From the NCBI GenBank assembly GCA_015056155.1, contig SVGU01000019.1, positions 1 to 40,430 of the forward strand: a stretch of 40,430 bases of DNA, in the 5' to 3' direction. The first letter of the stretch is position 1. The number at the start of each line of letters is the position of its first letter. Below the pieces are notes generated by a model. The model searched no databases, had not been told where the DNA came from, and saw only the letters and a program-made list of their open reading frames with translations. A program made the translations under genes and the position numbers. Shown one piece after another: positions 3,307-40,430 of this stretch. The DNA is from Clostridiales bacterium (GTDB lineage: Bacteria; Bacillota; Clostridia; Christensenellales; Aristaeellaceae).

Positions 3307-3309
3307 GCG

Positions 3310-5538: not shown

Positions 5539-5565
5539 GGGCGCCCACCATTGCCTGCGGCGACA

Positions 5566-5639: not shown

Positions 5640-5685
5640 GGGAGGAGCCCACCCGCATACACGCACATAACAGGAGGAATCAGCT

Positions 5686-6330
5686 ATGACCATCTACATC
5701 TGCGGCGATTCAACCGCGGCGACCTACGCGCCGGAGCGCGCGCCGATCACCGGCTGGGGCCAGGTCATCGGCGAAATGATGCCGGGCGTGACCTTCTCGA
5801 ATCACTCCATCGGCGGTCGCAGCACGAAGTCCTTCCTGTCCGAGGGGCGGCTGGTTGCGGTGGAAAAGGCGCTACAGCCCGGGGATATCGTGCTGATCCA
5901 GTTCGGCCATAACGATGGCAGCGATCTGGTCTGGCGGCATACGGATGCGAACACCTCCTTCCTGAACAACCTGTCCATCTTTGTGGACACGGCGCGGCAG
6001 CACGGGGCGATCCCGGTGCTGCTGACGCATACGCCCTGCAGCTGGTGGCGGGAAGGTGAACTGCCGGGCCATCCCGGGCAGCATGCGCCTGCCACGCGCC
6101 GCCTGGCCGCAGCGCGCAATGTCCCCCTGATCGACGTGCTGCAGGAGGGGGAGGCGGCTCTCCGCGCGATGGGCGAGGAAGCGTCATCGGCCCTGTACAT
6201 GAACGTGGCGCCCGGCCTGTATCCCGCCTATCCCAACGGCTCGAAGGACAACACCCATACCCAGCGCGCCGGCGCGGAGCTTTTCGCCCGCATCGTCGCT
6301 GATGGGCTTCAAAAGCTCGGCCTGATCTGA
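5686..6330 (+). CDS. Rhamnogalacturonan acetylesterase, CE12 (SGNH hydrolase)
   Basis: 214 residues with AGGAGG 12 bases before the ATG. All SGNH blocks are visible: GDST with nucleophile Ser9, GGRS (43-46, oxyanion Gly), GHND (74-77, Asn76), and D188-N-T-H191 giving the catalytic Asp and His. The GDST and GGRSTKSF pattern is typical of family CE12 rhamnogalacturonan acetylesterases, such as Bacillus YxiM/RhgT relatives. These remove O-acetyl groups from galacturonic acid in the rhamnogalacturonan I backbone so that glycosidases can act. No signal peptide; cytoplasmic. The same domain occurs again at the C-terminus of the next protein, and a decayed relative lies at 10421, so the operon holds three related copies. 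Confidence 0.92.
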   Translation: MTIYICGDSTAATYAPERAPITGWGQVIGEMMPGVTFSNHSIGGRSTKSFLSEGRLVAVEKALQPGDIVLIQFGHNDGSDLVWRHTDANTSFLNNLSIFVDTARQHGAIPVLLTHTPCSWWREGELPGHPGQHAPATRRLAAARNVPLIDVLQEGEAALRAMGEEASSALYMNVAPGLYPAYPNGSKDNTHTQRAGAELFARIVADGLQKLGLI

Positions 6331-6342
6331 GGAGGCAGCATT

Positions 6343-7959
6343 ATGTATATCATTGCAAAGGACGGTTCGGGGGACTTTACCTCCATTCAGGCGGCCATCG
6401 ACGCGGTGCCGATGAGCAACCGGCACCCCATCATCCTGCTGCTCCGCATGGATGAATACCATGAGAAGGTCGTCGTCAACAAGGACAACATCCGCATCAT
6501 CGGCGAGGCGCGGGACCGGACGGTCATCACCAACTCCGGCTGCGCCAAGGACCTGAACGAGGAGGGCAAGGAGAAGGGTACCTTCCTGAGCTACACCTTC
6601 CTCGTCACCGGCGACAATGTGGAGGTGGAGAACGTCACCATCCGCAACGACGCGGGCGACGGCTCCCTCGTGGGGCAGGCGGTGGCGGTTTACGCGGCCG
6701 GCGACCGGGGCGTGTGGCGCAATGTGCGCATGATCGCCTGTCAGGATACGCTGTTCTGCGGCCCCACGATGCCCAAGGTTGCCCGGGACGCGCTGCCCCG
6801 GCTCGTGCCGGAGGGCGTGCTGTCGGTGGGGGACTGCCCGCTGGTGCTCAGCCGGCAGTATTTTGAGGACTGCTTCATCCAGGGCGATGTGGACTTCATC
6901 TTCGGCCCCTATGCCTGCTGGTTCGAGCGCTGCACGCTGTATATGAACCGGCGGGGCGGCTTCTACACCGCCGCCAACACGCCCGAGCAGGCGCCCTATG
7001 GGCTGGTGTTCCACAAGTGCCGCCTGACGGGCGAGTGCGAGCCCGGCATGGCTTACCTCGGCCGTCCGTGGCGGAAATTCGCCCATACGCAGTTCATCGA
7101 ATGCGAGATGGACGAATGCGTCGCGCCCGAGGGCTTCCAGGACTGGGGCGAAACGAAGATCACCCGCCGCTGCGGCGAATACCGGACCACCGGCGCCCGG
7201 GCGGACCAGACGACCCGCCATCCCGGTCAGGCAAGGCTGTCCGATGAGGAGGCGGCGATGCTGACCGTCCGAAACGTCATCGGCGGCGCGGACGGCTGGA
7301 ATCCGCAGAAGCGCACGCCCACGTGGTTCCTCTGCGGCGACTCCACCATGGCCGACTATGCGCCCAACTGGGCGCCCATGACCGGCTGGGGACAGGCGCT
7401 CAAGGGGCTGGTGGAGGGCGTGTATGTGGAAAACTGCGCCGTCTGCGGCCGTTCCAGCAAGTCCTTCATCGCGGAGAAGCGGCTGAACTTCATCGAACTG
7501 TGCCTGCGCAGGGGCGACAAGCTCTTCATTCAGTTCGGCCACAATGACGAAAAGGAGGACGTGGAGCGCGCCACCGTCGCCCGCGTGACCTACCCGGAAT
7601 ATCTGGGCATGTACATCGATGCGGCCCGCCGTCAGGGCGCGGAGCCTGTCCTGCTCACCTCCATCGCCCGCCGTCACTTCGACGAAAACGGCGCGCTGAA
7701 GCACACCCACGGGGATTACCCGGCGGCGATGCGCGATCTGGCGGAATACCGCGGCGTGCGGCTGCTGGACATGGAGAAGGCGACGGAGGAACTGCTGACG
7801 GCGCTGGGAGAAAGCGGGTCGAAGCCCCTGTTCAACTGGCAGGAGAAGGGCCATCCCAACTATCCCGACGGCGTACAGGACAACACCCATCTGAGCTTCA
7901 CCGGCGCGGTGCGGCTGGCGCAGATGGCGCTGCGGCTGATGGAGGAAAGCGAATGCTGA
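6343..7959 (+). CDS. Bifunctional pectin methylesterase (CE8) - acetylesterase (CE12) fusion
   Basis: 538 residues, 12 bases after CE12, with GGAGG before the ATG. Residues 1 to about 310 are a pectin methylesterase: it opens like family members (KDGSGDFTSIQAAIDA), has QDTLF with Asp135, a VDFIFG with nucleophile Asp184, and LGRPW with Arg241. From about 325 a complete CE12 SGNH domain follows: GDST with Ser334, GRSSKSF, GHND at 399-402, and D513-N-T-H516. Both sets of catalytic residues are intact, so one polypeptide should strip methyl esters and acetyl groups from galacturonic acid. No signal peptide, so it acts on imported oligosaccharides. The gene overlaps the next start by 7 bases, which implies translational coupling. 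Confident in both domains; the natural substrate length is inferred. Confidence 0.92.
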   Translation: MYIIAKDGSGDFTSIQAAIDAVPMSNRHPIILLLRMDEYHEKVVVNKDNIRIIGEARDRTVITNSGCAKDLNEEGKEKGTFLSYTFLVTGDNVEVENVTIRNDAGDGSLVGQAVAVYAAGDRGVWRNVRMIACQDTLFCGPTMPKVARDALPRLVPEGVLSVGDCPLVLSRQYFEDCFIQGDVDFIFGPYACWFERCTLYMNRRGGFYTAANTPEQAPYGLVFHKCRLTGECEPGMAYLGRPWRKFAHTQFIECEMDECVAPEGFQDWGETKITRRCGEYRTTGARADQTTRHPGQARLSDEEAAMLTVRNVIGGADGWNPQKRTPTWFLCGDSTMADYAPNWAPMTGWGQALKGLVEGVYVENCAVCGRSSKSFIAEKRLNFIELCLRRGDKLFIQFGHNDEKEDVERATVARVTYPEYLGMYIDAARRQGAEPVLLTSIARRHFDENGALKHTHGDYPAAMRDLAEYRGVRLLDMEKATEELLTALGESGSKPLFNWQEKGHPNYPDGVQDNTHLSFTGAVRLAQMALRLMEESEC

Positions 7960-9068
7960 AGGAATTCATGCCCCGGTCTGCCGCGCGGATGGCAGACTGC
8001 TTGATCGGGCGCAACGGGCTGCTGACCAGCCGCTGGAGCTATGACTACGGCGTTGTCTGGCGCGGCATGGAGGCGCTCTATGCCCTGAGCGGCGAAAAGA
8101 AGTATTTCGACTATATCCGGGACGCGATGGATACCTTCGTCACCGACGATACGGGTGCCATTCGGGATTATACCTTTGACAGCTTCAATCTGGACTATGT
8201 CTGCAACGGCCGTCAGCTGCTGTACCTGTACAAGGCGACGGGGGAGGAGAAGTACCGCCGGGCGGCGGATGTGCTGCGGGAGCAGCTGCGCCGTCAGCCC
8301 CGCACCTCCGACGGCGGCTTCTGGCACAAGAAGTGCTATCCGTACCAGATGTGGCTGGACGGGCTGCATATGTCCGCGCCGTTCTATGTGGAGTACTGCC
8401 TGATGACCGGCGATGACGAGGGCGTGCGCGACGCGGCAAAGCAGCTGACGCTGGCGTACGAGCACACGTACGAGCCCCGGACGGGCCTGAACCACCATGC
8501 GTGGGACGAGTCCCGGGCACAGCTGTGGTCGGACCCGGAGACGGGCAGGGCGGCGCATGCCTGGGGCCGGGCGGTGGGCTGGTACATGCTGGGCCTGGCG
8601 GATGTGCTGGAGCTGCTGCCGGCGGATCACGAGTGCTGCGAGCCCCTGCGGGCGATGTTTGAGAAGCTGGCCGGGCGGATGCTGGAGGTCCGCGTGGACG
8701 GCGCGTGGCTGCAGGTGATGGACTGTCCCGGCCGCGAGGGCAACTACCTGGAGTCCTCCGGCTCCTGCCTGATGACGTGCGCCATCCTCAAGGCGGCGCG
8801 CCTGGGCGCTGTGCCGGCGGAGATGGGCGATGCGGCGAGGGAGAGCTTCCGCGCGCTGCAGCGGCATTTCGTCGGCCAGATGCGCAACGGCACGCTGTTC
8901 CTCGCCAAGACCTGCCACGGCGCGGGTCTGGGCGGACGGCCGGACAGCTACCGCGACGGTTCCTATGCCTACTACATCTCCGAGGCGGTGGGCAGCTATG
9001 ACCTCAAGGGCACCGGCGCGTACATCCAGGCCGCATGTGAATACGAAAGGAGCATGAAGGATGCTTGA
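7953..9068 (+). CDS. Unsaturated rhamnogalacturonyl hydrolase, GH105 (YteR/YesR-like)
   Basis: 371 residues; the ATG lies inside the end of the preceding gene, after a GAGGAAAG ribosome site. The (alpha/alpha)6-barrel GH105 pattern is clear, with Asp81 in FNLDYVCNGRQ and the catalytic Asp136 in YPYQMWLDGLHM (equivalent to YteR Asp88 and Asp143). GH105 enzymes hydrate the double bond of the unsaturated galacturonic acid left by pectate or rhamnogalacturonan lyases and release it, typically from delta-GalA-Rha disaccharides. Its presence means the cell receives lyase products, yet no lyase is in the window. No signal peptide; cytoplasmic. It overlaps the next gene by 8 bases. Confidence 0.93.
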   Translation: MLKEFMPRSAARMADCLIGRNGLLTSRWSYDYGVVWRGMEALYALSGEKKYFDYIRDAMDTFVTDDTGAIRDYTFDSFNLDYVCNGRQLLYLYKATGEEKYRRAADVLREQLRRQPRTSDGGFWHKKCYPYQMWLDGLHMSAPFYVEYCLMTGDDEGVRDAAKQLTLAYEHTYEPRTGLNHHAWDESRAQLWSDPETGRAAHAWGRAVGWYMLGLADVLELLPADHECCEPLRAMFEKLAGRMLEVRVDGAWLQVMDCPGREGNYLESSGSCLMTCAILKAARLGAVPAEMGDAARESFRALQRHFVGQMRNGTLFLAKTCHGAGLGGRPDSYRDGSYAYYISEAVGSYDLKGTGAYIQAACEYERSMKDA

Positions 9069-10407
9069 CCAACGTCTGAAGACCCGGATCGAGAATTTCG
9101 TCAGCCGCCTGGAGCGGGAGGATGTGTGCATGCACGGCTTCATCCTCTCCGTGGGCGGGCAGATCAAGGCGAAGGCCTATTATGCGCCCTTTGAGGAGGG
9201 CAAGGCGCATCGGATGTACTCGGTGTCCAAAACCATGACGGCCATCGCCATCGGCATCCTGCTGGACGAGGGGAAGCTGTCGCTGGATGACCACATCACG
9301 GACTATTTCCGGGATTACCTGCCGGAGCAGCCCGACGAGCGGCTGCTGCGCCTGACCATCCGGGACATGCTGCGCATGGCGACCTGCTACCGCAGCACGG
9401 CGTACCGCGAGGGCGTGGACGAAAACTGGACGAAGCCCTTCTTCACCGCCGCGTCCACCCATGAGCCCGGTACGGTGTTCCACTATGACACGGGCTGCTC
9501 GCAGGTGCTGGCGGCGCTGGTGGCGCGCCTGAGCGGCCAGGAGGTCATCGACTTCCTGAATGAGCGGGTGTTCGGCCCCCTGGGCGCTGAGGACGAGAAG
9601 TTCTGGCTGCGCGACCCCAGCGGCACCTGTCAGGGCGGCACGGGCCTGTGCATGTCCCTGCGGGATCTGCACAAGGTGACCCGGCTGGTCATGGAGGGCG
9701 GCGGCGGCCTCATTCCCCGGTGGTTCTGCGGGGAACTGGGCAAAAAGCACATCGACAACCGCCTGTGCGCCAATGAGGAGGAGCGCTACGGCTACGGCTG
9801 GCAGGTCTGGCTGACCCGTGCCGGCTGGGCGATGTACGGCCTGGGCGGACAGCTGGCGGTCGTCTGCCCGGAGAAGGACGTCTGTCTGTGCACCATCGCC
9901 GATACCCGGCTGGACAATGTGGGTGTGCAGCGGATCTACAACGCCTTCTTCGAGGAGGTCTACCCCTACATCGGGCTGGAGGACATGTCGCCGGTCAGCA
10001 TGCAGCTGGCGACCCGTCCCGTGGGCAGCAATGACGAGTACGCCATCGCGCAGGCCGGTCCCTACGTGTTTGCGGAGCCGAACCAGCTGGGCCTGAAGAG
10101 CGTGGAGCTGAGGGGCAACACCCTCTTCTGGGAGAACGCATGGGGCAAAAATCCGCTGCGCTTCGGCGTGGGGGAGAACATCGTGGATACCTTCCCGGGC
10201 TGGCCGGAGCTGCCGACGCTGTCCTCCGGCGGCTGGGTTGAGGAGGGGCTGCTGCGGGTGCGCTGCTTCATCATCGGCAATGCGCCCTGCGGCGTGGATA
10301 TGCTCCTGAACTTCAGGGACAACTGCCTGACGGTCCAGTCGCGCAAGTCCTTCGATCCGGCGACAAACTGCTATGAGGGCGTGGCCTCCGGCTATCTGAA
10401 AGAGTGA
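9061..10407 (+). CDS. Beta-lactamase-fold serine hydrolase (class C/esterase-like)
   Basis: 448 residues; the start overlaps the GH105 stop by 8 bases and follows AAAGGAG. The N-terminal two thirds is a serine hydrolase of the penicillin-binding/class C beta-lactamase fold. The S-x-x-K motif is SVSK (Ser54, Lys57), followed by a helix and the LDEGKLSLDD loop typical of the family. The second motif keeps its Tyr but reads Y-D-T instead of Y-x-N, within FHYDTGCSQ. The last ~110 residues form a separate beta-rich part. No signal peptide. Since it is translationally coupled to pectin enzymes and intracellular, antibiotic or cell-wall roles are unlikely; an esterase acting on pectin side groups (acetyl or feruloyl) is the working guess. 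The fold is solid; the substrate is unknown. Confidence 0.82.
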   Translation: MLDQRLKTRIENFVSRLEREDVCMHGFILSVGGQIKAKAYYAPFEEGKAHRMYSVSKTMTAIAIGILLDEGKLSLDDHITDYFRDYLPEQPDERLLRLTIRDMLRMATCYRSTAYREGVDENWTKPFFTAASTHEPGTVFHYDTGCSQVLAALVARLSGQEVIDFLNERVFGPLGAEDEKFWLRDPSGTCQGGTGLCMSLRDLHKVTRLVMEGGGGLIPRWFCGELGKKHIDNRLCANEEERYGYGWQVWLTRAGWAMYGLGGQLAVVCPEKDVCLCTIADTRLDNVGVQRIYNAFFEEVYPYIGLEDMSPVSMQLATRPVGSNDEYAIAQAGPYVFAEPNQLGLKSVELRGNTLFWENAWGKNPLRFGVGENIVDTFPGWPELPTLSSGGWVEEGLLRVRCFIIGNAPCGVDMLLNFRDNCLTVQSRKSFDPATNCYEGVASGYLKE

Positions 10408-10420
10408 GGAGAGCGCGTGT

Positions 10421-10831
10421 ATGGCAAGGATTTTTGTGACAGGATGCGCCGACGCCGCGCAGATGGCGGCAGGCTATGAGGGAGACATTGTGGATTTCAC
10501 CTCGGCGGACTGGTCCGCGAAGGGCTTTGTCAGCCGGGGCTGCCTCGCCGGCGTGTACGACCGTCTGACCATGGGGGATACGCTGCTGATCCAGTACGGC
10601 CCCAACGATACGGACCCGGACAATGCGGCCGGCTATTCCGAGCCTGGACGGGAGTTTGCAAATTATCTGGAGCGCTTTGTGAACGTGGCGCGCAACAAGC
10701 GGGCGACGCCTGTGTTCCTGATCCCTGCGCTGCCGGGGAGCGAAAAGTGGCGGGACAGCTGCATCGCCCTTGCCCGTCGTCTGGGCGTGGGATATACGCT
10801 GCTGCCCGGGCAGGAAGGAGCGAATGCATGA
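10421..10831 (+). CDS. Degenerate CE12/SGNH-like protein without catalytic residues
   Basis: 136 residues, 13 bases after the previous stop with GAGGAGAG upstream. It aligns along its length with the CE12 enzyme at 5686: the first strand, a WSAKGFVSRG segment matching GRSTKSFLSEG, the GDTLLIQYG strand and the ATPVFL strand. However, the nucleophile block GDST is GCAD (Ser to Ala), GHND is GPND, and the protein stops before the region that would carry the Asp-x-x-His pair. It is about 80 residues shorter than its relatives. It cannot work as a normal SGNH esterase. The frame is intact, it has its own ribosome site and its stop overlaps the next start (ATGA), so it is either a maintained pseudoenzyme or an early-stage relic. 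Confidence 0.75.
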   Translation: MARIFVTGCADAAQMAAGYEGDIVDFTSADWSAKGFVSRGCLAGVYDRLTMGDTLLIQYGPNDTDPDNAAGYSEPGREFANYLERFVNVARNKRATPVFLIPALPGSEKWRDSCIALARRLGVGYTLLPGQEGANA

Positions 10832-12381
10832 TGAAGGACGCCTTGTATTTCCCGGACATGGGCAACGGGCAGTACCGCAATCCTGTGCTTTTCTGTGACT
10901 ATTCGGACCCGGACGTGATCCGCGTGGGGGATACGTACTACATGACGGCGTCCTCCTTCAACTATGTGCCGGGTCTGCCGATCCTCACCTCGAAGGATCT
11001 GGTCAACTGGACGCTGGTGAACTATGCGCTGAAGAACATCCCTGCGCCCGATTATGAGCGCCCCCGGCACGCCGACGGCGTCTGGGCGCCCGCCATCCGC
11101 TGGCACAACGGGTATTTCCATATTTTCTACGGCATGCCGGACGAGGGCATCTACATGGTGCGCAGCCGGGATGCGCTGGGGGAATGGGAGGCGCCGGTGC
11201 TGGTGCTGCCGGGCAAGGGCCTGATCGACCCCTGCCCCTTCTGGGACGACGACGGCAAGGCCTATGTCATCCACGGCTATGCCAACAGCCGCATCGGCTT
11301 CAAGAGCTGGCTGGGCATCTTCCCGATCAGTCCGGACGGCGCGACGGCGCTGGGGGACGATCACCTGCTGTTCGACGGCACGAAGGATCACCCCACCATC
11401 GAAGGCCCCAAGGTGCACAAGCGGGACGGCTGGTACTACATTTTCGCCCCTGCGGGCGGCGTTGTGACGGGCTGGCAGACGGTGCTGCGCAGCCGCAGCA
11501 TCATGGGCCCCTACGAGGACCGGATCGTCCTGAAGCAGGGGCAGAGCCGCACGAACGGCCCGCATCAGGGCGCATGGGTGGATACGCCCGGCGGCGAAGA
11601 CTGGTTCCTGCATTTCCAGAGCCGGGGGCTGTACGGGCGCATCACCCATCTGCAGCCCATGATCTGGCGGGAGGACGGCTGGCCTGTGATCGGCGAAGCG
11701 GCGCGGGGCGAGGTTTTCGGTACGCCGGTGGACGTGTGGCGCAAGCCCGAGGGCCCGGCGGAGGAGCCCTGCTCGCTGCAGGCGAGCGACGATTTCCGTG
11801 GGTCGCTGGGGCTGCAGTGGCAGTTCATGGGCAACTGGAAGGAAGAATTCTACGAGATCGGCGAAGAGGGGCTGCGGCTGCATGCCGTGAGGCTGCCCGG
11901 CCATGACGGACTGCTGTGGCACTGCCCGAATGTGCTGACGCAGAAGATCGCCTGCCCGGCCTTCACGGCGGAGGTTGAGATGGATGCGTCCGGCCTGCAG
12001 GACGGCGAACAGGCAGGTCTGGGCCTCGTCGGCGGGCAGTATGCCTATGCAGCGCTCCGCCGCAAGGCGGGGAAGCTGACGCTGGTGTATGTGCAGTCCG
12101 GCGGCGCCGACCATGCGGAGGCGGTTCTGCAGAGCGTGCCGGTTCAGGATGCGAAGCTCCGGTTCCGGCTGACGCTGCTGCCCACGGGCTATGACACGGC
12201 GTCGGTGACCTTCGAATACGCGGCGGAGGGCGAATACCGCTGGCTGGGGACGCCCTTTGAGCCTGCGCGGCACACGTGGGTCGGCGCGAGGCTGGCGCTG
12301 TTCGCGACGCCCCTGTCCGGCGAGGCTGTGCAGGCATGCGGACATGCGGACTTCCGCGCATTCCGCGTCGGGGCTGTGTGA
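10828..12381 (+). CDS. Glycoside hydrolase family 43 (xylosidase/arabinofuranosidase type)
   Basis: 517 residues. The chosen ATG at 10828 overlaps the previous stop as ATGA and follows GGAAGGAG; a second ATG comes immediately after. Residues ~15-310 are the five-bladed propeller of GH43: catalytic base Asp27 in SDPDVIRVG, the pKa-tuning Asp in LIDPCPFWDDDGKAY, and the acid Glu in TIEGPKVHKRDGWYY. A C-terminal beta-sandwich domain (~315-517, beta-xylosidase C-terminal type with FMGNWKEEFYEI) follows, as in long GH43 enzymes. Members remove arabinofuranose or xylose units. In this operon it probably trims arabinan or xylose side chains of pectin oligosaccharides in the cytoplasm. It is the last gene of the operon; a terminator follows. 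Confidence 0.9.
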   Translation: MMKDALYFPDMGNGQYRNPVLFCDYSDPDVIRVGDTYYMTASSFNYVPGLPILTSKDLVNWTLVNYALKNIPAPDYERPRHADGVWAPAIRWHNGYFHIFYGMPDEGIYMVRSRDALGEWEAPVLVLPGKGLIDPCPFWDDDGKAYVIHGYANSRIGFKSWLGIFPISPDGATALGDDHLLFDGTKDHPTIEGPKVHKRDGWYYIFAPAGGVVTGWQTVLRSRSIMGPYEDRIVLKQGQSRTNGPHQGAWVDTPGGEDWFLHFQSRGLYGRITHLQPMIWREDGWPVIGEAARGEVFGTPVDVWRKPEGPAEEPCSLQASDDFRGSLGLQWQFMGNWKEEFYEIGEEGLRLHAVRLPGHDGLLWHCPNVLTQKIACPAFTAEVEMDASGLQDGEQAGLGLVGGQYAYAALRRKAGKLTLVYVQSGGADHAEAVLQSVPVQDAKLRFRLTLLPTGYDTASVTFEYAAEGEYRWLGTPFEPARHTWVGARLALFATPLSGEAVQACGHADFRAFRVGAV

Positions 12382-29733: not shown

Positions 29734-32700
29734 TTGAGCGTTTACTGTTATGAATGTATGATGCATAACCTGCCGGAAGGCCAGCGCACCTGTCCCAATT
29801 GCGGTGCGCGTATTCCGTATACCGGCAAGGATCCGCGAGACTGTCCTCCCGGCACGGTGCTCAACGGGCGCTACCTGCTGGGCAAGGCCATCGGCCGCGG
29901 CGGCTTCGGCGTGACGTATATCGCGCTGGATATCCGGACGCAGGAGCGCGTGTGCATCAAGGAATACAACCCCAAGCAGATCAGCCAGCGAGACCCGAAC
30001 AATCCGGTCATGCTGCTGCCCACGGGCGGCGGCGAAGCGCAGGAGGACTACCAGAAGTACAAGAAGAGCCTCCTGGCCGAGAAGGACCGCCTGATGCGCC
30101 TGCGGGATATCCCGGGCGTGGTGAAGTGCTTCGACGGCTTTGAATGCAACAACACCGCATATGTGGTGCTGGAGTTCCTTGAGGGCTGCGACCTGAAGCA
30201 TTACGTGCTGGACAACCGCAGTGCCCGCGGCCAGCTGAGCATCATGGACAGCGTCGATATGACCTGCAACATCCTGATGACGCTGTCCCAGGTGCACAAG
30301 CACAAGATGCTCCACCGCGACATCAGCCCGGACAACGTGTTCCTGCAGAACAACGGCGTACTCAAGCTGATCGACTTCGGCTCGGCGCGAAATATCAACG
30401 TCGGCGAGATGACGGGCTTCATGAAGCCCGGCTATGCGGCGCCGGAAATGATCCTGGGCGACAAGCAGGGCGACTATACGGACATCTATTCCGTCGGCGC
30501 GGTGCTGTACTTCCTGCTGGTGGGCGAGAAGCCCCGCACCGGCAGCGACAGCAGCCGCCTGCTGCCCCCGCCTAACAACCGCACCACGCCGGAGCTGACT
30601 GCCATCTTCAACAAGGCCACCGAGCGTCAGCCCTCCGACCGATACCAGACGGCGGACGAGATGCTGGCGGACCTGCAGCAGGTCATGGCCCTGTACGGCA
30701 TCCAGCCCATCAAGCAGGCCAAGACCCGCTCACCGCTGGGCCGGAACCTGCTGATCGGCACGCTGTCCATCACGGCGGTTGGTCTGATCGGCCTGATCGT
30801 CATGGCCGGCATGGACAGCGGCAGCCAGGGCCAGCAGCCCGCGCAGCCTACCGCGACGGTCAGCACCTATGTGACCAGCACGCCCGTGCCGGTGAGCATT
30901 ACCGAGGAGCCCGTTTCTGTGGCGGCGATCACCGATACCCCCGTTCCGGCTGTGCGCCGTCTGGTGGGCGCGCCGGAGGGAGACCTGCGGCTGTTCGCAG
31001 GCCAGACGCTGACCATCAACAGCAGCTTTGGCGACGGCGAGCGCTTCGACGCCCGCTGGTGGTCCCGGAACTCCGCCAGCGCGGCGGCCCAGGGCCATGG
31101 CGACGGCCATGCCGTCATCACCGCGAAGGCGGAGGGCAAGGCGGAGATCACCTACTTCGACGGCTCGCGGAACCGCAGCTTCATGGTGGAGGTGCTGCCC
31201 TATCCGGAGCTGAAGCAGGACGGCGCATCGGCGCAGGTCGGCTTCCTGACCCAGAGCGGCGACCACAGCTATACCCTCACCCTGTCCAAGGGCGACATGA
31301 CCGCGCTGACGCTGGACCAGCATCAGGGCGTGACGTATGAGCTCATCCTGCTCGAGGGCGGGAAGAGCGGCAGCGTCCGGCTGCTGGACAACCGGACGGT
31401 GAGCATCTCCGCAGCGGCGGAGGGCGAGAGCGTGTTCGGCATCCGCGCCAGAGGCGTCGCGGTGGAGGAGGAGATCATCCGCCTGACGGTCAACGTGGGC
31501 CAGCACAGCATCACCGGCGGCCTGGAGGCCGAATACACCATGATCGAGGGCGGCAGCCTGCGCATCCCGATCCGCTTCACCGACGGCGCGACGCTGGATC
31601 TGTCGAAGGTGAAGAACGATCACAAGGCGCTGAAGATCAGCGTCGATCCCAAATATCCTGAGATCATGATCGTCGAAGGAACCCAGGCGGGCGTCTACGA
31701 CGTGACGATCGAGGGGCAGGACGTGCGCTTTGCGGTGCTGAGAGCCTCCGGACTGCAGACGAACGAATGGGTGAAGGCGGACGGCGGTGATTATGCCGTC
31801 ACGCTGCCCGTGAATGAGACGCTGACGCTGAATCTGACCGACTGGAGCGCGGAGCATCAGTACGTGGTGGAGCGCATCGGTGCGGGTGACGCCCGCCTGG
31901 CTGTTTCCCAGGACGGCACGGCGCTGGAGCTGACCGGCGCCAGCGTGCCCGGACAGGGCGAATTCAGCGTTTCCGCCAGCGGCGTGGAGCTGTTCCGCCT
32001 GAAGGTGAACACTGTTTCCCGCGGCGTGAACACCAGCTTCAAGCAGGAATACCGCATCTTTACCGACCAGATGTTTGAACTGGCGCTGGACTATGCCCAC
32101 GGCATGTCCGCCGCGCCCGAATGCACCGTCAGCCCGGCGGGCATCCTCGAAGCGGCGCCCGTCGACAGCGGCCGCAAGCTGCTCATCAAGGGCCTGAAGC
32201 CCGGCACCGCGCGGGTGACTGTGGACGGCAAGAGCTTCGATGTGGAGGTCGTCAGCGGCGCGATGGGTCTGTCAGCGGCCGAGGGTCTGACGCAAAACGG
32301 CAATGTGTATACGTTGACCATGGTGGAGGATGACCAGACGAAGCTGGAGATCGGGAATTTCTCCTCCGGCTGCAAGCTGGTCTCCGACAAGAACCGGACC
32401 TCCTCCGCTACGCTGACCCGGCAGAACGAGACCCTGATCGTCAAGAGCTCCGCCGCGGGCGAGAGCACCTTCGTGTTCCGCACCAGCGGCATGGAGGAGA
32501 ACCGGGAGCTGTTCACGCTGAAGGTGGTCGTCGAAAAGGCGCCGGTGTACGAGCTGGCGCAGAAGCCCCAGACGCAGTACACGGTCTTTGAGGGCGCGAC
32601 GCTGGAGATCCCGATCCGCTTCGGCGCGACGGGCAGCTTCCCGCTGGAAATGACGTACGACGCGAGCAGGCTGACCATCACCGAGCAGGCGGACAAGCTG

Positions 32701-35700
32701 ATCGTGACGGCCAAGCGCGCGGCCGGTCAGACTGGCCTCACGCCCGTGACTGTCCAGTACCGCACCAGCAGCGAGCTGGCGACCAAGTCCAGCTTCACCG
32801 TCCGGATCGCGCCTGCGCCGGCAATGATCCTCAACGGCGATACGACCGCCTCGAAGTACCTGGAGGAAACGGACGGGGGCTACACGCTGTATCTGTCGGC
32901 GGGCGAACAGGCGTCGCTGAAGATCAGCGAGGTGAGCGGCGTGGAGTATAAGCCGGTGCTCAAGCAGGGCTTCGGAGCGACGGATATCAGCGCCGCCAAC
33001 GGCCTGCTGAACGTGTCGGCGGTCCGCAGCGGCGAGAGCGTGTACGGCATCCACACCTCCGGCATGAGCGAGGACGGCGAAGTGATGCAGCTGCGCGTGG
33101 TTGTGGCCGGCCATATGCTGACCTCCAACCTGTCTGCCAGCGGCTACAACATCATCGCCGGCGGCGAGCTGAAGCTGACGACCCTGTTCAGCGACGGCAA
33201 GACGCTGGACGTGCAGAAGGATGTCAGGCAGCTCAGCGGTACGGCCCTGACCTTCCGCGCCGACCCGGAGAACAGCAGCATCCTCATCATCTCCGGCAGC
33301 CAGACCGGCAGCGCTGAGATCGAGATCGGCGGCAAGCGCGCGGTCGTCAACGTCATCAGCGCGCCCCGGATGATCGCCCAGAGCGGCGTCTCCCGGGACA
33401 GCGACGGCTATGTGCTGACCCTGCCTGTGGGCGGGTCCGCGGGCATCCCCATGACCGGCGTGACCCCGGCGCACCTGTTCATCGTCGATCCGATGAGCGA
33501 GGGCAGCGCGCAGGTGACCTTCAACCAGCAGAACAACACGCTGGCGATCTCTGCGGCAAACGCCAATGAGGAGCGCAGCTTCCGCATCATCTCCAACGGC
33601 ACGGTGCTGTTCAACCTGCGCGTGCGCACGGTGGTGCCGGAGCTGCTGACGAGCTTCAATGCAAGGACCTGCATCCTGACCGGAAGCAGCCTGAGCATTG
33701 ATCTGGAATACACCGACGGCATCCTGGTGGAGCCGAAGGTGGAGATTTATGAAAACAACAGGCAGGTGACGCAGTCCACGGTCGTGTGGACGAGCATCGA
33801 GGACGAAGGCCGCCGGCTGGTCATCGAGGGCCGGAAGGAAGGCGCTGTCCGCCTGACTGTGGACGGAAAGTCCTTCGAGGTGATCGTACAGAGCGCTGAT
33901 ATCAGCCTTGCGCTGGCGGACGGCGTGGTCCAGGAGGGCCTGGGCGTCTATACGGTCACGGCGCCGCTGAAGAAGAGCATGGCCCTGCAGCTCAACGGCC
34001 GCGACAGCAGCAGCGTGTACGGCATGAAGCCGGAAAAGGGCGACGCCTCCATCGCGCAGATGAAGGTCAACACCGACAAGAACCGCATCGAGATCTTCGG
34101 CCTCAAGCCCGGCGCCACCGTCTATGAGATCATGAGCGAAACGGACGGCGAGGAGCGCGTGCTGCTGACGGTGAAGATCATCGTGGAAGAGCCGCCCAAG
34201 CATGTCCATGTGGAGCAGAAGATCCCCGCCGTGGCGGCGACCTGCACCGCGACGGGCCTGACCGAGGGCGTGAAGTGCGCGGAGTGCGGCGAGATCCTGA
34301 CGGCGCAGCAGACCATTCCCAGGAAGGACCACCAGCAGGAGGTCCTTGCGGCGAAGGCGGCGACCTGCACCGAAAACGGTCTGACGTCCGGTCTGCGGTG
34401 CTCCGTCTGCGGCGAGATCCTGCTGAAGCAGGAAACCATCCCCGCGACCGGACACACGGTCGTGGAGCTCGCGGGCAAGGAAGCGACCTGTACCGAGCAC
34501 GGTCTGACGGCGGGCGAAAAGTGCTCCGTCTGCGGCGAGATCCTGAAGGTGCAGAGCGCCATCATCAAGAAGGGCCACCGTCAGGTGACGATCCCCGGCA
34601 GAGCGGCGACCTGTACCGCAACGGGCCTGACGGACGGCGTGAAGTGCTCCGTCTGTAACGAGATCCTGACGGAGCAGAAGGTCATCAACAAGCTCGCGCA
34701 CCGTGAGGTGGAGATCCCGGCGGTGGCCGCGACGGCGACCCAGACCGGTCTGACGGCGGGCGTGAAGTGCGCGGACTGCGGCGAGATCCTCGTGCCCCAG
34801 CAGGTCATCTCGGCAAAGGGCCACAAGGAAACCGTGATCCCGGCTGTGGAGGCGACCTGCACCACGACCGGCCTGACCGAGGGCGTGAAGTGCGCGGACT
34901 GCGGCGAGATCCTGCTGCCCCAGCAGGTCATCCCGGCGAAGGGCCACAAGGAAACCGTGATCCCGGCGGTTGCGGCGACCTGCACGGCGACGGGCCTGAC
35001 CGAGGGCGCGAAGTGCGCGGATTGCGGCGAGATCCTCGTCCGGCAGGAAACGACGCCGATGGCAGCGCATACGGAGACCGAGATCCCGGCCGTGGCAGCC
35101 ACCTGTACCGAATCCGGCCTGACGGCGGGCAAGAAGTGCGCTGTGTGCGGTATGGTGCTGAAGGCGCAGGAAAAGGTCGACGAGCTGGGACACTGGCTGC
35201 GGACGTACACCGTTGCTCCCACCACGGAGGACATCGGCTACGATCATGAGGTCTGCCAGCGCGAGGGCTGCAACTACTATCACAGCTACAATTACAAGGC
35301 AAAGCTGCCGAAGGTTCTTGGCTTCATCGTTTTCGACGCGAGTGATGCACCTGTTGATTACGATCTGGTTCAGGATGTGTACGGCGTGATGGAGATTACC
35401 GCTGCTGGCGAAGCTGACGGCACCTATCCCCTGCGCAAGCTGTACTTCAGCAGGGAGCTGATCAAGGAGCTGTACGAGCGCGATGTAAAGACGATCATCT
35501 TCATTGTAGATGACAACGAGCTGGAGTTCTCCATCGACCTGTTTGAAAAAGCAGAGCTTCCCGCAAATGCTGCTGCTTTCTTATTCGTCGTTGATGGTGA
35601 GGATGCGTATGTGCAGATCGAAGCCGGCGATGAGCTGATTGATATCACCGCCAGGGTCGAAGACATTGCCCTGAACGGTGAAAAACTGAAGGTACGCCCT

Positions 35701-36525
35701 GCGTCTTCCGTAGACGTCCTGCCCACGCTGGCGGCGGATGCGCAGCTGGAGACGGAGAAGAACGGCTACAGCATCAGCCTGCCCATCGGCATGGAATACA
35801 CGCTGAAGCTGAAGAACGCGAACCGGAACCATGACATTTCCATCGTTGCCCAGCAGTCTGGCAGCGCGGCGCTGACGCTCGGCGCGGACAAGGCAAGCCT
35901 GATGGTGGCGGCCGCTGCCGGCGAGGACGAGAGCGTGTATGTGGTCAATTGCAACGGCACGGAGCTGTTCACCCTGACGGTGAATACCGTGACCGGCGAG
36001 CTGACGAACAAGTTCAAGTCCGCCTACACCATCTTTGTGGACGGCACGGCGGAGATGGAGCTGAAGTACGGCCATCATTTCCCGGTGAATCCGGAGGTCG
36101 TCGTCAGCAACCCCAACATCATCAGCGCCAGCCTGGCCGACGACGGTCATACCCTGCTGCTGACAGCCCTCAAGGAAGGTATCTCGGACGTGACGGTGGA
36201 CGGCAAGTCCTTCCTGATCAACACCTGCCTGGCCAATGTGGGTCTGGAGCCCGCGACGGGTCTGACGCAGGAGAACGCGAATACCTACCGGCTGGTTGTC
36301 AGGGCGAACACCTCGGTGACGCTGAAGCTGACGAACTACGACAGCAGGCTGTTCAGCCTGAGGCTGAAGAAGAACGGCTCCGAGATCGCTGCGATCGATG
36401 ACAAGGGCGACACCCTGGTGATCGACAGCGTCAAGCCCGGTACCGCCGTCCATGAGGTGTACAGCCGCGGCAACGCCGATGAAGCACAGCTGTTCTTTAC
36501 CCTGATCGTTGAGGTGGTGGAGTAA
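29734..36525 (+). CDS. Giant zinc-ribbon Ser/Thr kinase receptor with repeat ectodomain
   Basis: 2,263 residues from a TTG start at 29734, chosen because GAGGGA lies 8 bases upstream and it keeps the first CxxC; the ATG codons at 29758/29761 would cut the zinc motif, and the one at 29623 lies in the promoter. Residues 5-23: four-Cys ribbon (CxxC, CPNC). About 45-315: complete kinase with G54-R-G-G-F-G loop, Lys76, H194-R-D196, D214-F-G and A-P-E238. 338-358: single membrane span, then a Pro/Thr linker. Outside: repeated beta-rich modules (~415-1490; recurring YTL-TL, DGKSFDV and GESVFGI motifs), eight 41-residue CxxC repeats (~1496-1823), a distinct segment (~1860-1992) and two more beta modules. 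Probably an envelope-sensing Hanks-type kinase; signal and targets unknown. A related pseudokinase gene follows. Confidence 0.87.
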   Translation: MSVYCYECMMHNLPEGQRTCPNCGARIPYTGKDPRDCPPGTVLNGRYLLGKAIGRGGFGVTYIALDIRTQERVCIKEYNPKQISQRDPNNPVMLLPTGGGEAQEDYQKYKKSLLAEKDRLMRLRDIPGVVKCFDGFECNNTAYVVLEFLEGCDLKHYVLDNRSARGQLSIMDSVDMTCNILMTLSQVHKHKMLHRDISPDNVFLQNNGVLKLIDFGSARNINVGEMTGFMKPGYAAPEMILGDKQGDYTDIYSVGAVLYFLLVGEKPRTGSDSSRLLPPPNNRTTPELTAIFNKATERQPSDRYQTADEMLADLQQVMALYGIQPIKQAKTRSPLGRNLLIGTLSITAVGLIGLIVMAGMDSGSQGQQPAQPTATVSTYVTSTPVPVSITEEPVSVAAITDTPVPAVRRLVGAPEGDLRLFAGQTLTINSSFGDGERFDARWWSRNSASAAAQGHGDGHAVITAKAEGKAEITYFDGSRNRSFMVEVLPYPELKQDGASAQVGFLTQSGDHSYTLTLSKGDMTALTLDQHQGVTYELILLEGGKSGSVRLLDNRTVSISAAAEGESVFGIRARGVAVEEEIIRLTVNVGQHSITGGLEAEYTMIEGGSLRIPIRFTDGATLDLSKVKNDHKALKISVDPKYPEIMIVEGTQAGVYDVTIEGQDVRFAVLRASGLQTNEWVKADGGDYAVTLPVNETLTLNLTDWSAEHQYVVERIGAGDARLAVSQDGTALELTGASVPGQGEFSVSASGVELFRLKVNTVSRGVNTSFKQEYRIFTDQMFELALDYAHGMSAAPECTVSPAGILEAAPVDSGRKLLIKGLKPGTARVTVDGKSFDVEVVSGAMGLSAAEGLTQNGNVYTLTMVEDDQTKLEIGNFSSGCKLVSDKNRTSSATLTRQNETLIVKSSAAGESTFVFRTSGMEENRELFTLKVVVEKAPVYELAQKPQTQYTVFEGATLEIPIRFGATGSFPLEMTYDASRLTITEQADKLIVTAKRAAGQTGLTPVTVQYRTSSELATKSSFTVRIAPAPAMILNGDTTASKYLEETDGGYTLYLSAGEQASLKISEVSGVEYKPVLKQGFGATDISAANGLLNVSAVRSGESVYGIHTSGMSEDGEVMQLRVVVAGHMLTSNLSASGYNIIAGGELKLTTLFSDGKTLDVQKDVRQLSGTALTFRADPENSSILIISGSQTGSAEIEIGGKRAVVNVISAPRMIAQSGVSRDSDGYVLTLPVGGSAGIPMTGVTPAHLFIVDPMSEGSAQVTFNQQNNTLAISAANANEERSFRIISNGTVLFNLRVRTVVPELLTSFNARTCILTGSSLSIDLEYTDGILVEPKVEIYENNRQVTQSTVVWTSIEDEGRRLVIEGRKEGAVRLTVDGKSFEVIVQSADISLALADGVVQEGLGVYTVTAPLKKSMALQLNGRDSSSVYGMKPEKGDASIAQMKVNTDKNRIEIFGLKPGATVYEIMSETDGEERVLLTVKIIVEEPPKHVHVEQKIPAVAATCTATGLTEGVKCAECGEILTAQQTIPRKDHQQEVLAAKAATCTENGLTSGLRCSVCGEILLKQETIPATGHTVVELAGKEATCTEHGLTAGEKCSVCGEILKVQSAIIKKGHRQVTIPGRAATCTATGLTDGVKCSVCNEILTEQKVINKLAHREVEIPAVAATATQTGLTAGVKCADCGEILVPQQVISAKGHKETVIPAVEATCTTTGLTEGVKCADCGEILLPQQVIPAKGHKETVIPAVAATCTATGLTEGAKCADCGEILVRQETTPMAAHTETEIPAVAATCTESGLTAGKKCAVCGMVLKAQEKVDELGHWLRTYTVAPTTEDIGYDHEVCQREGCNYYHSYNYKAKLPKVLGFIVFDASDAPVDYDLVQDVYGVMEITAAGEADGTYPLRKLYFSRELIKELYERDVKTIIFIVDDNELEFSIDLFEKAELPANAAAFLFVVDGEDAYVQIEAGDELIDITARVEDIALNGEKLKVRPASSVDVLPTLAADAQLETEKNGYSISLPIGMEYTLKLKNANRNHDISIVAQQSGSAALTLGADKASLMVAAAAGEDESVYVVNCNGTELFTLTVNTVTGELTNKFKSAYTIFVDGTAEMELKYGHHFPVNPEVVVSNPNIISASLADDGHTLLLTALKEGISDVTVDGKSFLINTCLANVGLEPATGLTQENANTYRLVVRANTSVTLKLTNYDSRLFSLRLKKNGSEIAAIDDKGDTLVIDSVKPGTAVHEVYSRGNADEAQLFFTLIVEVVE
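34219..35202 (+). repeat. Eight 41-residue (123-bp) CxxC repeats in the kinase ectodomain
   Basis: Eight in-frame units of pattern I-P-A-x-A-A-T-C-T-x-x-G-L-T-x-G-x-K-C-x-x-C, then GEIL, a Q-x-x-I-P segment and GH. Each keeps the CxxC and, apart from unit 5, the first Cys; unit 5 reads ATATQTGLT, Cys to Ala. Units 6 and 7 are the most alike at DNA level. This repeat type is familiar from Clostridia surface proteins. A degenerate ninth unit (VAPTTEDIGYDHEVC) closes the array. Confidence 0.9.
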
Positions 36526-36633: not shown

Positions 36634-39600
36634 ATGAGCAGATGTCCTAATTGCATGAATGAACTGGTGCACGACAGGTGTACCGGCTGCGGCTATCCGG
36701 CGGTCGAGGTGGCCGTCATCCGCGGTGCGATGCCGCCCGATACGGTGCTGATGGACCGCTTCGAGCTCGGCTATGCACTGGGGGCGAGCCATCAGTCGAT
36801 CGCATACATCGCCTACGATCGCCTTCAGGGGAAGGCTGTGCTTGTTCTGGAGTTCTTCCCCAAGCAGATCTCCATGCGCAAGAAGCTGCAGGTCGCGCCG
36901 CGCAGCCATAACGAGCTGTACATGGACGCGTGCCGCCTGTATCTCACCAGCGAGCAGGCGATGCCCATGCGTCTGATCCATACCTTCGCCGACAACAACA
37001 CGGCCTACCGCGTCTATCAGCTCAACGGCAGCGCCGCCAACGCGGTGGACGAGGCGGATCAGATGCTGGACCGGCCTTTCCTGTTCCGCAATGCGGAGGG
37101 CAAGCCGATCATGGCGGTCAACGCGCTGCCGATCCCGGCCATGCCCCAGACGACGCCCTGGAGCCTGTCCCGCAAGCTGACCAAGGAGCGCACGCGCAAG
37201 AAGGTCAACGGCATCGCAGCGGTAGCCCTCGCGGGCGTGATCGCGGTCGCCGGCGGCTTCGTGTACATGGACATGACCCGGGAGTATCCCGTCACCATCC
37301 GCGTGAAGACGGATTCCCCGATCGTGGAGGCGAAGCTGGGCGACGAGGTGCTGCCTGATGTGACGCCTGACCCCGACGGCTATGTCGTCTATACGCAGAG
37401 CCTGCGCAAGGGCGAATACCCCTTCCGGGCGAAGAACGCGGAGAAGGAAAAGACCGACACGCTGAAGGTGACCGGCGCGGAGGACGCAGCCTTTGAGGTG
37501 GCGATCCCCACCCCGGACCCCAAGGCCTACACGGCGGACGAGGCGGACTGGTACTTCCGCAAGGACGGAAAGACCTCCATCGTCAAGGACGGCCGGCTGG
37601 CCGAGGTGGATGAGCTGCGCCTCGCGGCAACGAAACCGGAGCTGTATGAGTTCCGCGTGGAGGCCGAGCCGGTGGACGGCATGAAGCTCGCCCTCGTCCG
37701 GGACGACGGGTTTGAGCAGGAGCTGGAAATGAGCGCCGCCGGAACGACCTTCAGCGTCACCGAGGGCGTGTACAGACTGTATCTGTACAAGGACGGCGAG
37801 CGCATCGCCGAACCTTCCATCCACATCCCCGGCAAGGAGACGGTGAAGCAGTTCGATACCCGCGCGTATCAGGTGTATCACGATTTCCTCAAGGACCGCA
37901 CGCCGGAGGAGCTGTACTACATCGGCGACGCCTGCAGCATTGAGGGGCTGGATGTGCCCTTTGCGGAGATCAACAAGTGGGCCGAGGATCTGCCGGAACT
38001 GTTCGGCCAGTTCGAGCAGCACGACGTGTACATCGCTCTGGATAACGGTGTGCCTGCAGATGCGCAGGTTGCCCTGAACGGCATCGCCTGGCAGCCGGGC
38101 GACCCGATCACCGTCAGCAAGACCGGAACGGAGCTCGATTATGCGATCAGCGTCGGCGGTACGGAATGGGACGCGGGCCGGATCGCGGCGAATAACGAGT
38201 CGGTCAGCCTGGGCGGTACCAAGGCAACGGAGGATATCAGCAGCTGGGACAGCATTACCGGCCTGGCCGAGCACAACGGGGCGCATTACTGGATCGGGCA
38301 GGAAGGCCGGATGCAGAAGATGACGGAGGAGCGCTGGCAGGAGCTGCAGAGCGATATGGCGCTCTATCCGAGCCTCCGGGAACGCCTGGACAAGCCGCTG
38401 CTCAGCCCGGTCATGAAGGTGAACAGCAGCGTCAATCTCGCGGTGGTCGATCGCGTCCGCCTGGAGGGTATCGACCTGACGCAGATCGCACCCGGCACGT
38501 ACCAGTTTGACGCCCTGCCTGGGGGCGACTATGATGTGGAGGTCTGCCTCAAGGGCGGCGATCGGGTCCGCGAGAGCCTTGACATCAAGGCAAGCGGCGA
38601 ATATGAGCTGATGACCAGCGACGCCCGCGAGATGAAGGTGATTGCGGAACTGATCGGCAGCAGGAAGCCCATGCTCATGGAGACCTCTGGCGGATATCAG
38701 TACCTTGGCGTGGAGGAGGACTACCTCTACAAGGTGCCGACGCAGGACGGGATCATCGACAAGACGCTGACGCCCGAAGTGCTGCTCGCCTTTGCGGACC
38801 GCTATGAGTCGATCATGAGCGCGCTTCCCCTGCATGATGTGCAGCTCAGCGTCGATCAGCGCATCAACCCGCGGCTGATCCGGGCTGTGTACATCAACGG
38901 CACGGAGGTCGGCTTCAATCAGGAAACGTACCGGCTGGACGTGCGGAAGCTCAGCGCCGGCGACTATACGATCGAATATGAGCTGGACGACGGAAAAACC
39001 GCCGCGCCGCACACGTTGAAGGTAGCGGGGATCGTCCGGGATGATACCCTGCTGAAGGCCGAGGCGGATGCGGCGTTCAAAGCGCTGCGGTACTGGAGCG
39101 CGCAAGAGGGCTATCGTGCGATCAACAGCGACAGCGAAGACTGGCTGACGAGGGAGACGCAGGAAGCCCGGATGAACGACAGCGTTGTTCTGTCCATGCA
39201 GGTGAATCCCGAAAACTGGGGCCACCTGACCTACACCCTGGAAACGCAGGGTGCGGCGGACCCGCTGATTCTGCGGCCGAATGAACACGGCATGATGACC
39301 GTGATCATCACCAGGGATGACACTGCCGAATACGAGCTGCTGGTGGCGGAGTCGGACAAGTCGATGCAGAAGCGTACGGTCAGAAAGTTCACGACGAACG
39401 ACTCTGACGTGATGGATCTGGACAAGGACCTGCTGGCCGTGGCCGCCGATCTCGGCGAAAACATGGCCGTGATCAACCTGCCCGTGGACAGCCGTCTGGC
39501 GGATAACATCAGCGTGTATGCCGAGCTGAAGGACGCGACAGGCAAGGAGCACCTGGTGGACCTGAAGAAGGTCATTGATGAGCAGGGTACGGTCAGCTAT

Positions 39601-40430
39601 ACCGCTGGTGATAAGACAGTCGCCTATGGCGATTATCTGGTTGTGGTGAACATCGACTACTCTGCGAACAGCGCGGTGTACCATGATTCGTACTGCTACG
39701 TGGCGTCGATGTACGAAGACGGCACGATGAAGCTGATGACGGCGGACGCGGCGCCCCGCGAGGTCTCGGCGCTGCTGGAAGACGTGGCGGACCGGGCAGT
39801 TGCGGATCTGCGCTTCTTCGGCAATGACCGGAAGAAGCTGGCTGTGCTGGCTGGCAATTGCGACATGCTGAGCGCGGAAGCCTTCCAGGCGGAGCAGAAC
39901 GCGGTGCAGGAATACAAGCTGTTCTTCCCCAATGTGTCTCCCGCGAAGGATCTGCTGTTTGAGCTGCGCCCGGCGGGTGACAACACGAACGTCATCAAGA
40001 TCGACGTCAAGACGTACCGCAAGGCCGGCTTTGAGAAGGGCCTGCGCTATGAATCCCTGTTCCTGTCCGAGGGCACCTACGAACTGACGGTCAGGAAGAC
40101 CGGCTCGTCGAAGGTGTACAAGATGGGTACGATCATCATCGGCGATGAGCTCGAGGTGAAGTCGTCCACGGGCGTCCTGACGACGGACAAGAACAAGCCC
40201 TTCGCGATCACCATCGTTGAGGAGTTCTGGTACGAGGACAAGCTGAACATGAAGGAGTATCTGGGCAGCGGGTCCAGCGGAAACGAAAGCAACGATGAAA
40301 CGAATATGAATCAGGGCGACGGCGCTGGTGGCGGCACTGGCGGCGGCAATGGCGGCGGCGCTGGTGGCGGCAATGGCGACGGCACTGGCAGCGGCAATGG
40401 CGGCGGCGCTGGTGGCGGCAATGGCGGCGG
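36634..40430 (+). CDS. Zinc-ribbon N-lobe-only pseudokinase membrane protein (partial)
   Basis: 1,265 codons are in view with no stop; the gene runs off the right end. ATG at 36634 follows AGGAGGAC. Residues 4-19: CxxC...CxxC ribbon like the upstream kinase. About 36-140 align with the N-lobe of that kinase (PPDTVL-x-x-R-F-x-L-G, AYIAYD, EFFPKQIS, NNTAYRVYQL). However, the glycine loop is G50-A-S-H-Q-S, the ATP lysine is Leu72, and the C-lobe with HRD, DFG and APE is missing. A basic segment (KLTKERTRKK) and one membrane span (192-213) follow, then over 1,000 residues of extracellular beta-type modules, partly PEGA-like (YPVTIRVKTDSP), ending in a Gly-rich tail. It cannot phosphorylate. It lies 108 bases after the kinase gene, with a small hairpin (36579-36599) lacking a T-run between, so co-transcription is likely. 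Confidence 0.85.
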   Translation, partial: MSRCPNCMNELVHDRCTGCGYPAVEVAVIRGAMPPDTVLMDRFELGYALGASHQSIAYIAYDRLQGKAVLVLEFFPKQISMRKKLQVAPRSHNELYMDACRLYLTSEQAMPMRLIHTFADNNTAYRVYQLNGSAANAVDEADQMLDRPFLFRNAEGKPIMAVNALPIPAMPQTTPWSLSRKLTKERTRKKVNGIAAVALAGVIAVAGGFVYMDMTREYPVTIRVKTDSPIVEAKLGDEVLPDVTPDPDGYVVYTQSLRKGEYPFRAKNAEKEKTDTLKVTGAEDAAFEVAIPTPDPKAYTADEADWYFRKDGKTSIVKDGRLAEVDELRLAATKPELYEFRVEAEPVDGMKLALVRDDGFEQELEMSAAGTTFSVTEGVYRLYLYKDGERIAEPSIHIPGKETVKQFDTRAYQVYHDFLKDRTPEELYYIGDACSIEGLDVPFAEINKWAEDLPELFGQFEQHDVYIALDNGVPADAQVALNGIAWQPGDPITVSKTGTELDYAISVGGTEWDAGRIAANNESVSLGGTKATEDISSWDSITGLAEHNGAHYWIGQEGRMQKMTEERWQELQSDMALYPSLRERLDKPLLSPVMKVNSSVNLAVVDRVRLEGIDLTQIAPGTYQFDALPGGDYDVEVCLKGGDRVRESLDIKASGEYELMTSDAREMKVIAELIGSRKPMLMETSGGYQYLGVEEDYLYKVPTQDGIIDKTLTPEVLLAFADRYESIMSALPLHDVQLSVDQRINPRLIRAVYINGTEVGFNQETYRLDVRKLSAGDYTIEYELDDGKTAAPHTLKVAGIVRDDTLLKAEADAAFKALRYWSAQEGYRAINSDSEDWLTRETQEARMNDSVVLSMQVNPENWGHLTYTLETQGAADPLILRPNEHGMMTVIITRDDTAEYELLVAESDKSMQKRTVRKFTTNDSDVMDLDKDLLAVAADLGENMAVINLPVDSRLADNISVYAELKDATGKEHLVDLKKVIDEQGTVSYTAGDKTVAYGDYLVVVNIDYSANSAVYHDSYCYVASMYEDGTMKLMTADAAPREVSALLEDVADRAVADLRFFGNDRKKLAVLAGNCDMLSAEAFQAEQNAVQEYKLFFPNVSPAKDLLFELRPAGDNTNVIKIDVKTYRKAGFEKGLRYESLFLSEGTYELTVRKTGSSKVYKMGTIIIGDELEVKSSTGVLTTDKNKPFAITIVEEFWYEDKLNMKEYLGSGSSGNESNDETNMNQGDGAGGGTGGGNGGGAGGGNGDGTGSGNGGGAGGGNGG
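40318..40430 (+). repeat. Gly-rich minisatellite at the window end
   Basis: About 110 bases of GGC-based tandem repeats; units of GGCGGCGCTGGTGGCGGC followed by AATGGC or ACTGGC recur, encoding GGGAGGGNGG-like peptide. It continues past the window edge, so its length is unknown; copy number is likely variable. Confidence 0.85.

Follow-up and report, generated by a model that had tools for sequence, protein, structure and literature searches.

Among described bacterial proteins, EssB/YukC is a membrane pseudokinase with a head, one membrane span and an outer part; EssB has both kinase lobes, according to the part of PMC3694306 available to us, and has its own Pfam family (PF10140). Other bacterial pseudokinase families, namely ActPs1-3, GLW, CP1, DYD and DLHK, have lost catalytic motifs, are assumed to play a non-catalytic role and are listed with the letters at their VAIK, HRD and DFG positions in the accessible portion of PMC12599244. 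The type VII-like subtypes T7SSe and T7SSj combine an EssC-type ATPase bearing FHA with WXG100, a kinase, a PPM phosphatase and FHA proteins (PMC11217815, partial text); in the same text, FHA domains are proposed to read phospho-Thr in related secretion subtypes, with the type VI secretion system circuit of PpkA and Fha as a comparable case. Here, we describe a stretch of 40,430 nucleotides ("the window") from Clostridiales bacterium, which is the entire contig SVGU01000019.1 (contig C56) of assembly GCA_015056155.1 (genome G000, 74% complete). An open reading frame (ORF) at its end (36634..40428, + strand) encodes a protein, called B hereafter, which combines a kinase N-lobe with a membrane span, follows a gene encoding a full kinase (kinase A) and belongs to a conserved family genetically linked to a PP2C phosphatase.

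A conserved family with a kinase N-lobe and no C-lobe

B, as delimited from its ORF, its homologues and a tree, has 1265 visible amino acids, and its reading frame is still open where the contig stops. At its start is a zinc ribbon with four cysteines (residues 4-20, 36643..36693; + strand, like all its features), whose Cys columns are at least 90% conserved among 15 family members and which gave a weak, sub-cut-off DZR match. A kinase N-lobe with five strands and helix alpha-C follows (residues 33-129, 36730..37020), as seen from alignments, an AlphaFold model and a Foldseek search. Next come a family-specific extension of about 40 residues, overlooked in the earlier note on this DNA (residues 130-171, 37021..37146; helix 134-145, hairpin 149-152/158-162), a basic juxtamembrane stretch (residues 179-190, 37168..37203), a single membrane span predicted by hydropathy (residues 190-208, 37201..37257), a long further part and a Gly-rich repeat tail, inside which the contig stops (40315..40428). 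Neither Pfam nor NCBIfam named a kinase in B or in the 15 scanned family members.

The earlier note had described a zinc ribbon and an N-lobe that lacks the glycine loop, carries Leu72 at the ATP lysine and goes without a C-lobe, and this description was borne out by alignment, by AlphaFold and Foldseek, which support the N-lobe fold, and by lobe-specific hidden Markov models (HMMs). At the VAIK lysine column (Leu72 of B, 36847..36849), 13 of the 15 members that we group as class I have Glu and two have Leu, while Lys occupies this column in 14/14 compared kinases. The former glycine loop (residues 50-55, 36781..36798, now GASHQS) carries the family motif S-R-Q-S/A or, more broadly, S-[RHYI]-Q-[SA]: the first S is kept in 13/15 members and replaced by N in two, R is found in 12/15, and Q and then S or A in 15/15. 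All 14 kinases carry the alpha-C Glu, for which class I shows no conserved equivalent. A C-lobe HMM gave no match at E<=1 in the six frames of 15 family genes, four of which are cut by a contig end, and the N-lobe HMM matched all 15 genes. An assembly error or a frameshift, which the earlier note had kept in view as another explanation for the missing C-lobe, was therefore judged unlikely. Compared with what an active Hanks-type kinase requires, B has the N-lobe fold and lacks the lysine, the glycine loop, the alpha-C Glu and the HRD/DFG C-lobe, so that, judged by its sequence, it is an N-lobe-only and non-catalytic protein.

What was lost is accompanied by new conserved features. D146, P148, F151 and P171 are invariant across the extension of the 15 members, and in the region before the span 12 columns are invariant, and 10 more nearly so, across these 15 diverged sequences. 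B displays the features by which we define class I, namely the loop motif, E/L at the lysine site and a D-x-P..F..P extension, and probably also the PP2C partner. By eye, the extension had suggested a beta7-beta8 remnant of the C-lobe; this was unsupported by sequence (E 0.82), and in the VIA rows the aligned range ends at different places of the kinases.

A first, profile-less search of genome contigs with B alone found no relatives. With a profile (A1) run over 308 genomes from the bacterial family to which the window's genome belongs, 15 matches extended through the extension (E<=1.7e-46, profile end at 174 or beyond); the next match (E 1.7e-22) is a full kinase, and lower ones stop at profile position 152 or before. 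Extension-length matches were limited to G000 and G026 in an order sample of 396 genomes (threshold 1e-12) and to G000 in a phylum sample of 398 genomes (threshold 1e-22); at most 11 first-look candidates per genome were scored in the family search and at most eight in the two others, and some members may thus have been missed. In a tree of 77 N-lobes, built on as few as 148 columns, the 15 class-I members form one clade (bootstrap 100, SH-like approximate likelihood ratio test 99), and kinase A is not its sister. The B family has a single origin. Since 15/308 genomes carry it as one clade, B is conserved as a family and is not a decay product, and since it does not pair with kinase A in this tree, we could rule out that it is a recent degenerate copy of its neighbour.

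The same lobe-specific HMMs, applied to ORFs, uncovered another type of membrane protein with a zinc ribbon and an N-lobe only, called class II here, at 21 loci of other genomes (L012-L017, L019-L028, L030, L031, L043, L074, L093), in which no C-lobe match was found. A typical class II protein has GQDASGIVY as its loop and Arg at the lysine site, followed by what looks by eye like a membrane span. In the N-lobe tree, 12 of 13 class II sequences form a clade (100/100); a separate origin of the two classes was not shown, as a single clade for both was not rejected (approximately unbiased test, p 0.315). A gene for a HAD-type phosphatase, recognised by eye, lies next to the class II gene in 6/6 family loci viewed, and at L115 (G337) the class II gene is one small ORF away from a full kinase.

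Linkage of B-like genes to a PP2C phosphatase

The most regular companion of class-I genes is a PP2C of one subfamily. In 14/15 class-I genomes it is fused to the class-I gene, next to it, separated from it by a single ORF or placed beyond a contig break. It lies directly downstream of the B-like gene in eight genomes; in two (G000, G227) the contig breaks within the repeat tail and the PP2C is the first gene beyond the break; it comes after one extra ORF in two (G162 and, across a contig break, G139) and is fused to the B-like protein in two (G034, G303). A profile of 11 of these PP2Cs, searched over the same 308 genomes, gave 14 matches at E<=1.5e-101, every one of them from a class-I genome; the next match was at 2.6e-79, and with up to seven candidates scored per genome, no PP2C reached the former range among the other 293 genomes. 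When the genomes that supplied the profile were left out, the PP2C was present in 3/4 class-I genomes and in 0/293 others (Fisher p ~9e-7, calculated by hand with kinship ignored). Residues that we take to be the PP2C metal ligands are invariant in 11/11 of these proteins.

Both fusions join the N-lobe and the extension to the PP2C through a short linker and have no membrane span, and one of them (L034) also lacks the zinc ribbon; the 13 unfused proteins all have one span after the extension. From what is accessible of PMC8080068, PP2C enzymes are controlled by regulatory domains through a switch beside the active site, and the plant kinase SnRK2 touches the switch helix of the PP2C Hab1.

The window's own PP2C probably lies on another contig of the same genome, C67, which opens in a Gly-rich reading frame that matches the tail of B and is followed by a PP2C. 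The B tail and the C67 end share an exact word of 23 bases, versus 13 in the rest of C67 examined. Matching repeats flank the contig breaks in other genomes as well (PKDTPTPKP in G227 and TAVP in G139, compared with the Gly-rich frame in G000). The PP2C neighbour is easily missed because assemblies break in such B-like repeat tails; breaks in the repeat-coded tail were seen in four genomes, namely G000 (C56 40315-40430/C67 end, L048), G139 (L036/L109), G227 (L077/L110) and G183 (L033). At L109 (524-1678, G139), an extra membrane protein precedes the PP2C and looks, by eye, like the second half of a B-like protein without the N-lobe.

Kinase A and the type VII-like locus

Kinase A (29740..36525, + strand; start uncertain, ORF from 29623) combines a zinc ribbon, a full Ser/Thr kinase and a membrane span with a long remaining part and falls in a clade of dedicated kinases. 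Its protein kinase domain (29878..30558, + strand; Pfam Pkinase E 1.3e-33) retains K, HRD and DFG. After the span, eight copies of an ATCTxxGLTxGxKCxxCGEIL-type repeat were counted by eye, together with Ig-like stretches, and contig C47 of the same genome encodes a second kinase of this subfamily (L084 4910-5935), 50% identical in the kinase region. A profile was built from nine kinases of eight class-I genomes; with it, we found the subfamily in 10/15 class-I genomes (best E<=1.8e-92), a count that may be too low as six candidates were scored per genome. The 293 other genomes gave no match better than 3.7e-78, and among the class-I genomes outside the profile the subfamily was found in 2/7. 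It shares a readable locus with the B-like gene in seven genomes (G000, G162, G139, G026, G206, G303, G059), five of which (G162, G139, G026, G206, G303) have the order B-PP2C-kinase on one strand, and lies on a different contig in three (G034, G050, G288). The earlier note had asked whether homologues always sit beside a full kinase: such a kinase does recur, in the same locus in 7/15 cases and in the same genome in 10/15, and the PP2C, at 14/15, is the steadier companion.

C67 is a type VII-like locus. From its end, the Gly-rich repeat and the PP2C are followed by an FtsK/SpoIIIE ATPase with FHA, LytTR, WXG100 and two FHA proteins, and further on by a WXG100-like gene, identified by eye, and a DUF4176 gene. 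The set typical of T7SSe/T7SSj (FHA-bearing FtsK/SpoIIIE ATPase, WXG100, PPM phosphatase and kinase) is thus present by Pfam, provided that C56 and C67 are linked as their Gly-rich ends suggest. PADLOC matched kinase A and the ATPase to many kinase and ATPase models and gave no match for B, the PP2C, the WXG100 or the two FHA proteins. As for two other components of T7SSe/T7SSj, the YukD-like TsxB and the DUF6382-FHA protein TsxJ, a YukD match passes the cut-off in L089 and falls slightly short of it in L087, and the scanned L037 and L083 proteins have FHA and no DUF6382 match.

An EssC-type ATPase (E<=1e-30) was found in 10/15 class-I genomes and was not found at this threshold in G026 (97% complete) or G183 (99% complete). 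In G026 (L038) and G139 (L036), signalling clusters that include an FHA-like gene, at least two kinases and another two PP2C-like genes were noticed by eye near the B-like gene; no EssC-type ATPase was found in either genome at the same threshold. Genes resembling plant cell-wall (pectin) degradation genes by eye occupy 2044-12381 of the window and are unrelated to B.

Possible roles of B and comparison with known systems

We consider, with about even confidence, that B is a non-catalytic, kinase-derived partner of the neighbouring PP2C. The computations gave the N-lobe fold, the loss of the lysine and of the C-lobe, the common origin, the new motifs, the PP2C linkage and the two fusions. In the mechanism that we propose, phospho-Thr would be written by kinase A, read by the FHA proteins and erased by the PP2C, which B would hold, position or tune at the membrane: its N-lobe and extension may bind the PP2C and/or present it to a kinase or a kinase substrate, and its span would put it beside membrane kinases and, where present, a type VII-like secretion machine. 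Somewhat more tentatively, a kinase trimmed to its N-lobe might now be the subunit that regulates or targets a PP2C holoenzyme, by which the eraser is brought to the membrane of the writer and, in the ten class-I genomes with the ATPase, perhaps to a type VII-like system.

Several points weigh against a partnership of B and PP2C. In G183 (99% complete), the PP2C of the subfamily was not found, although the contig stops in the repeat tail of the gene, and the joins C56-C67 (G000), C64-C107 (G227) and C124-C41 (G139) are suggested by matching repeats. The PP2C profile was built with the help of 11 of the 14 matches that it returned, and no more than seven first-look candidates were scored per genome. 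All cases come from one bacterial family, so that the genomes are not independent samples, and the adjacency of the two genes may reflect shared regulation alone. An AlphaFold model of a natural fusion has both domains folded (predicted local distance difference test score 77.6, predicted template modelling score 0.71), scores which do not decide whether the domains dock. Binding of the PP2C by B, recruitment to the membrane and effects on phosphatase activity or secretion are inferred from neighbourhood linkage.

One alternative is that B is a structural secretion part that replaces EssB/YukC, in which the head would attach to the FHA domains of the EssC-type ATPase, with the span as the anchor of the complex. 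B shares the EssB topology, the YukC pseudokinase domain binds the YukB FHA region (PMC9600267, as far as its text was available), EssB/YukC was over the Pfam cut-off in 0/15 class-I genomes (below the cut-off, G059 has one match at E 0.018), and on C67 an FHA-bearing ATPase comes after the PP2C. Yet the head of EssB has two lobes where B has one, both PP2C fusions lack the span, and the ATPase is found in ten of the class-I genomes only. Genomes can apparently keep the B-PP2C pair in the absence of a secretion ATPase, although most genomes are incomplete, and this speaks against B as a core secretion part; we find this alternative unlikely. About equally improbable to us is a role for B as an N-lobe decoy that raises or lowers the activity of its dedicated kinase by docking on it, back to back or at the active site. 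The co-occurrence of the kinase subfamily and the one-strand gene order in five genomes would fit, as would the back-to-back dimer of the MviN pseudokinase domain, with constraints at the N-lobe interface in the part of PMC12599244 that covers it. However, the kinase is linked to B more weakly than the PP2C is (10 versus 14 of 15), and the kinases near B in G292 and G294 have no zinc ribbon and fall outside the subfamily score range. The earlier note had raised docking on the neighbouring kinase as a possibility; its N-lobe-only protein, non-catalytic by sequence, stands and is conserved as a family, but the strongest genetic link is to the PP2C.

We see little chance that B instead senses the outside through a large outer part and that its N-lobe is a remnant that caps it on the cytoplasmic side and has no partner. 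The stretch that follows the span is indeed long, and its size varies between some 10-30 residues in proteins of 221-244 amino acids and more than 1000 amino acids, but it is the region before the span that is conserved; the fusions have no outer part, and L081, L082 and L083 have almost none.

The retention of half a kinase as a conserved family suggests that selection can maintain an N-lobe alone as a binding module. If B is a PP2C subunit, it would give an example of how bacterial PP2C phosphatases are brought to their sites, and the small soluble domain and the natural fusions offer ready-made constructs that make this idea directly testable.

Among known systems, the Hanks-type zinc-ribbon kinases share with B the zinc ribbon, as in kinase A, and the strand order of the N-lobe, a conserved Glu after the lysine site and NNT before strand 5; unlike them, B has no glycine loop, VAIK lysine, conserved alpha-C Glu or C-lobe. 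The best match of the family profile among 44 solved-structure sequences was PpkA (E 3.2e-5 over the N-lobe). EssB was absent from these sequences and from the top 50 structure-search matches, which is no evidence either way. B resembles EssB/YukC in its pseudokinase head, in its one span, seen in 13/15 members with a cytoplasmic side that we infer from the kinase homologue, and in the EssC-type ATPase of many class-I genomes; it differs from it by its zinc ribbon, its single lobe, its PP2C partner and the lack of a PF10140 match. Like the pseudokinase families of PMC12599244, B has lost catalytic motifs and is assumed to have a non-catalytic role, but it has no HRD or DFG region at which letters could be listed. 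A literature search by title and abstract returned no N-lobe-only bacterial pseudokinase with a PP2C among its listed matches, the supplements of PMC11217815 lying outside its scope, and the available text of that paper names none in T7SSe/T7SSj. B may also add a component to type VII-like loci, for which control by phosphorylation was proposed there, and compared with T7SSe/T7SSj, C67 brings in LytTR and further FHA genes.

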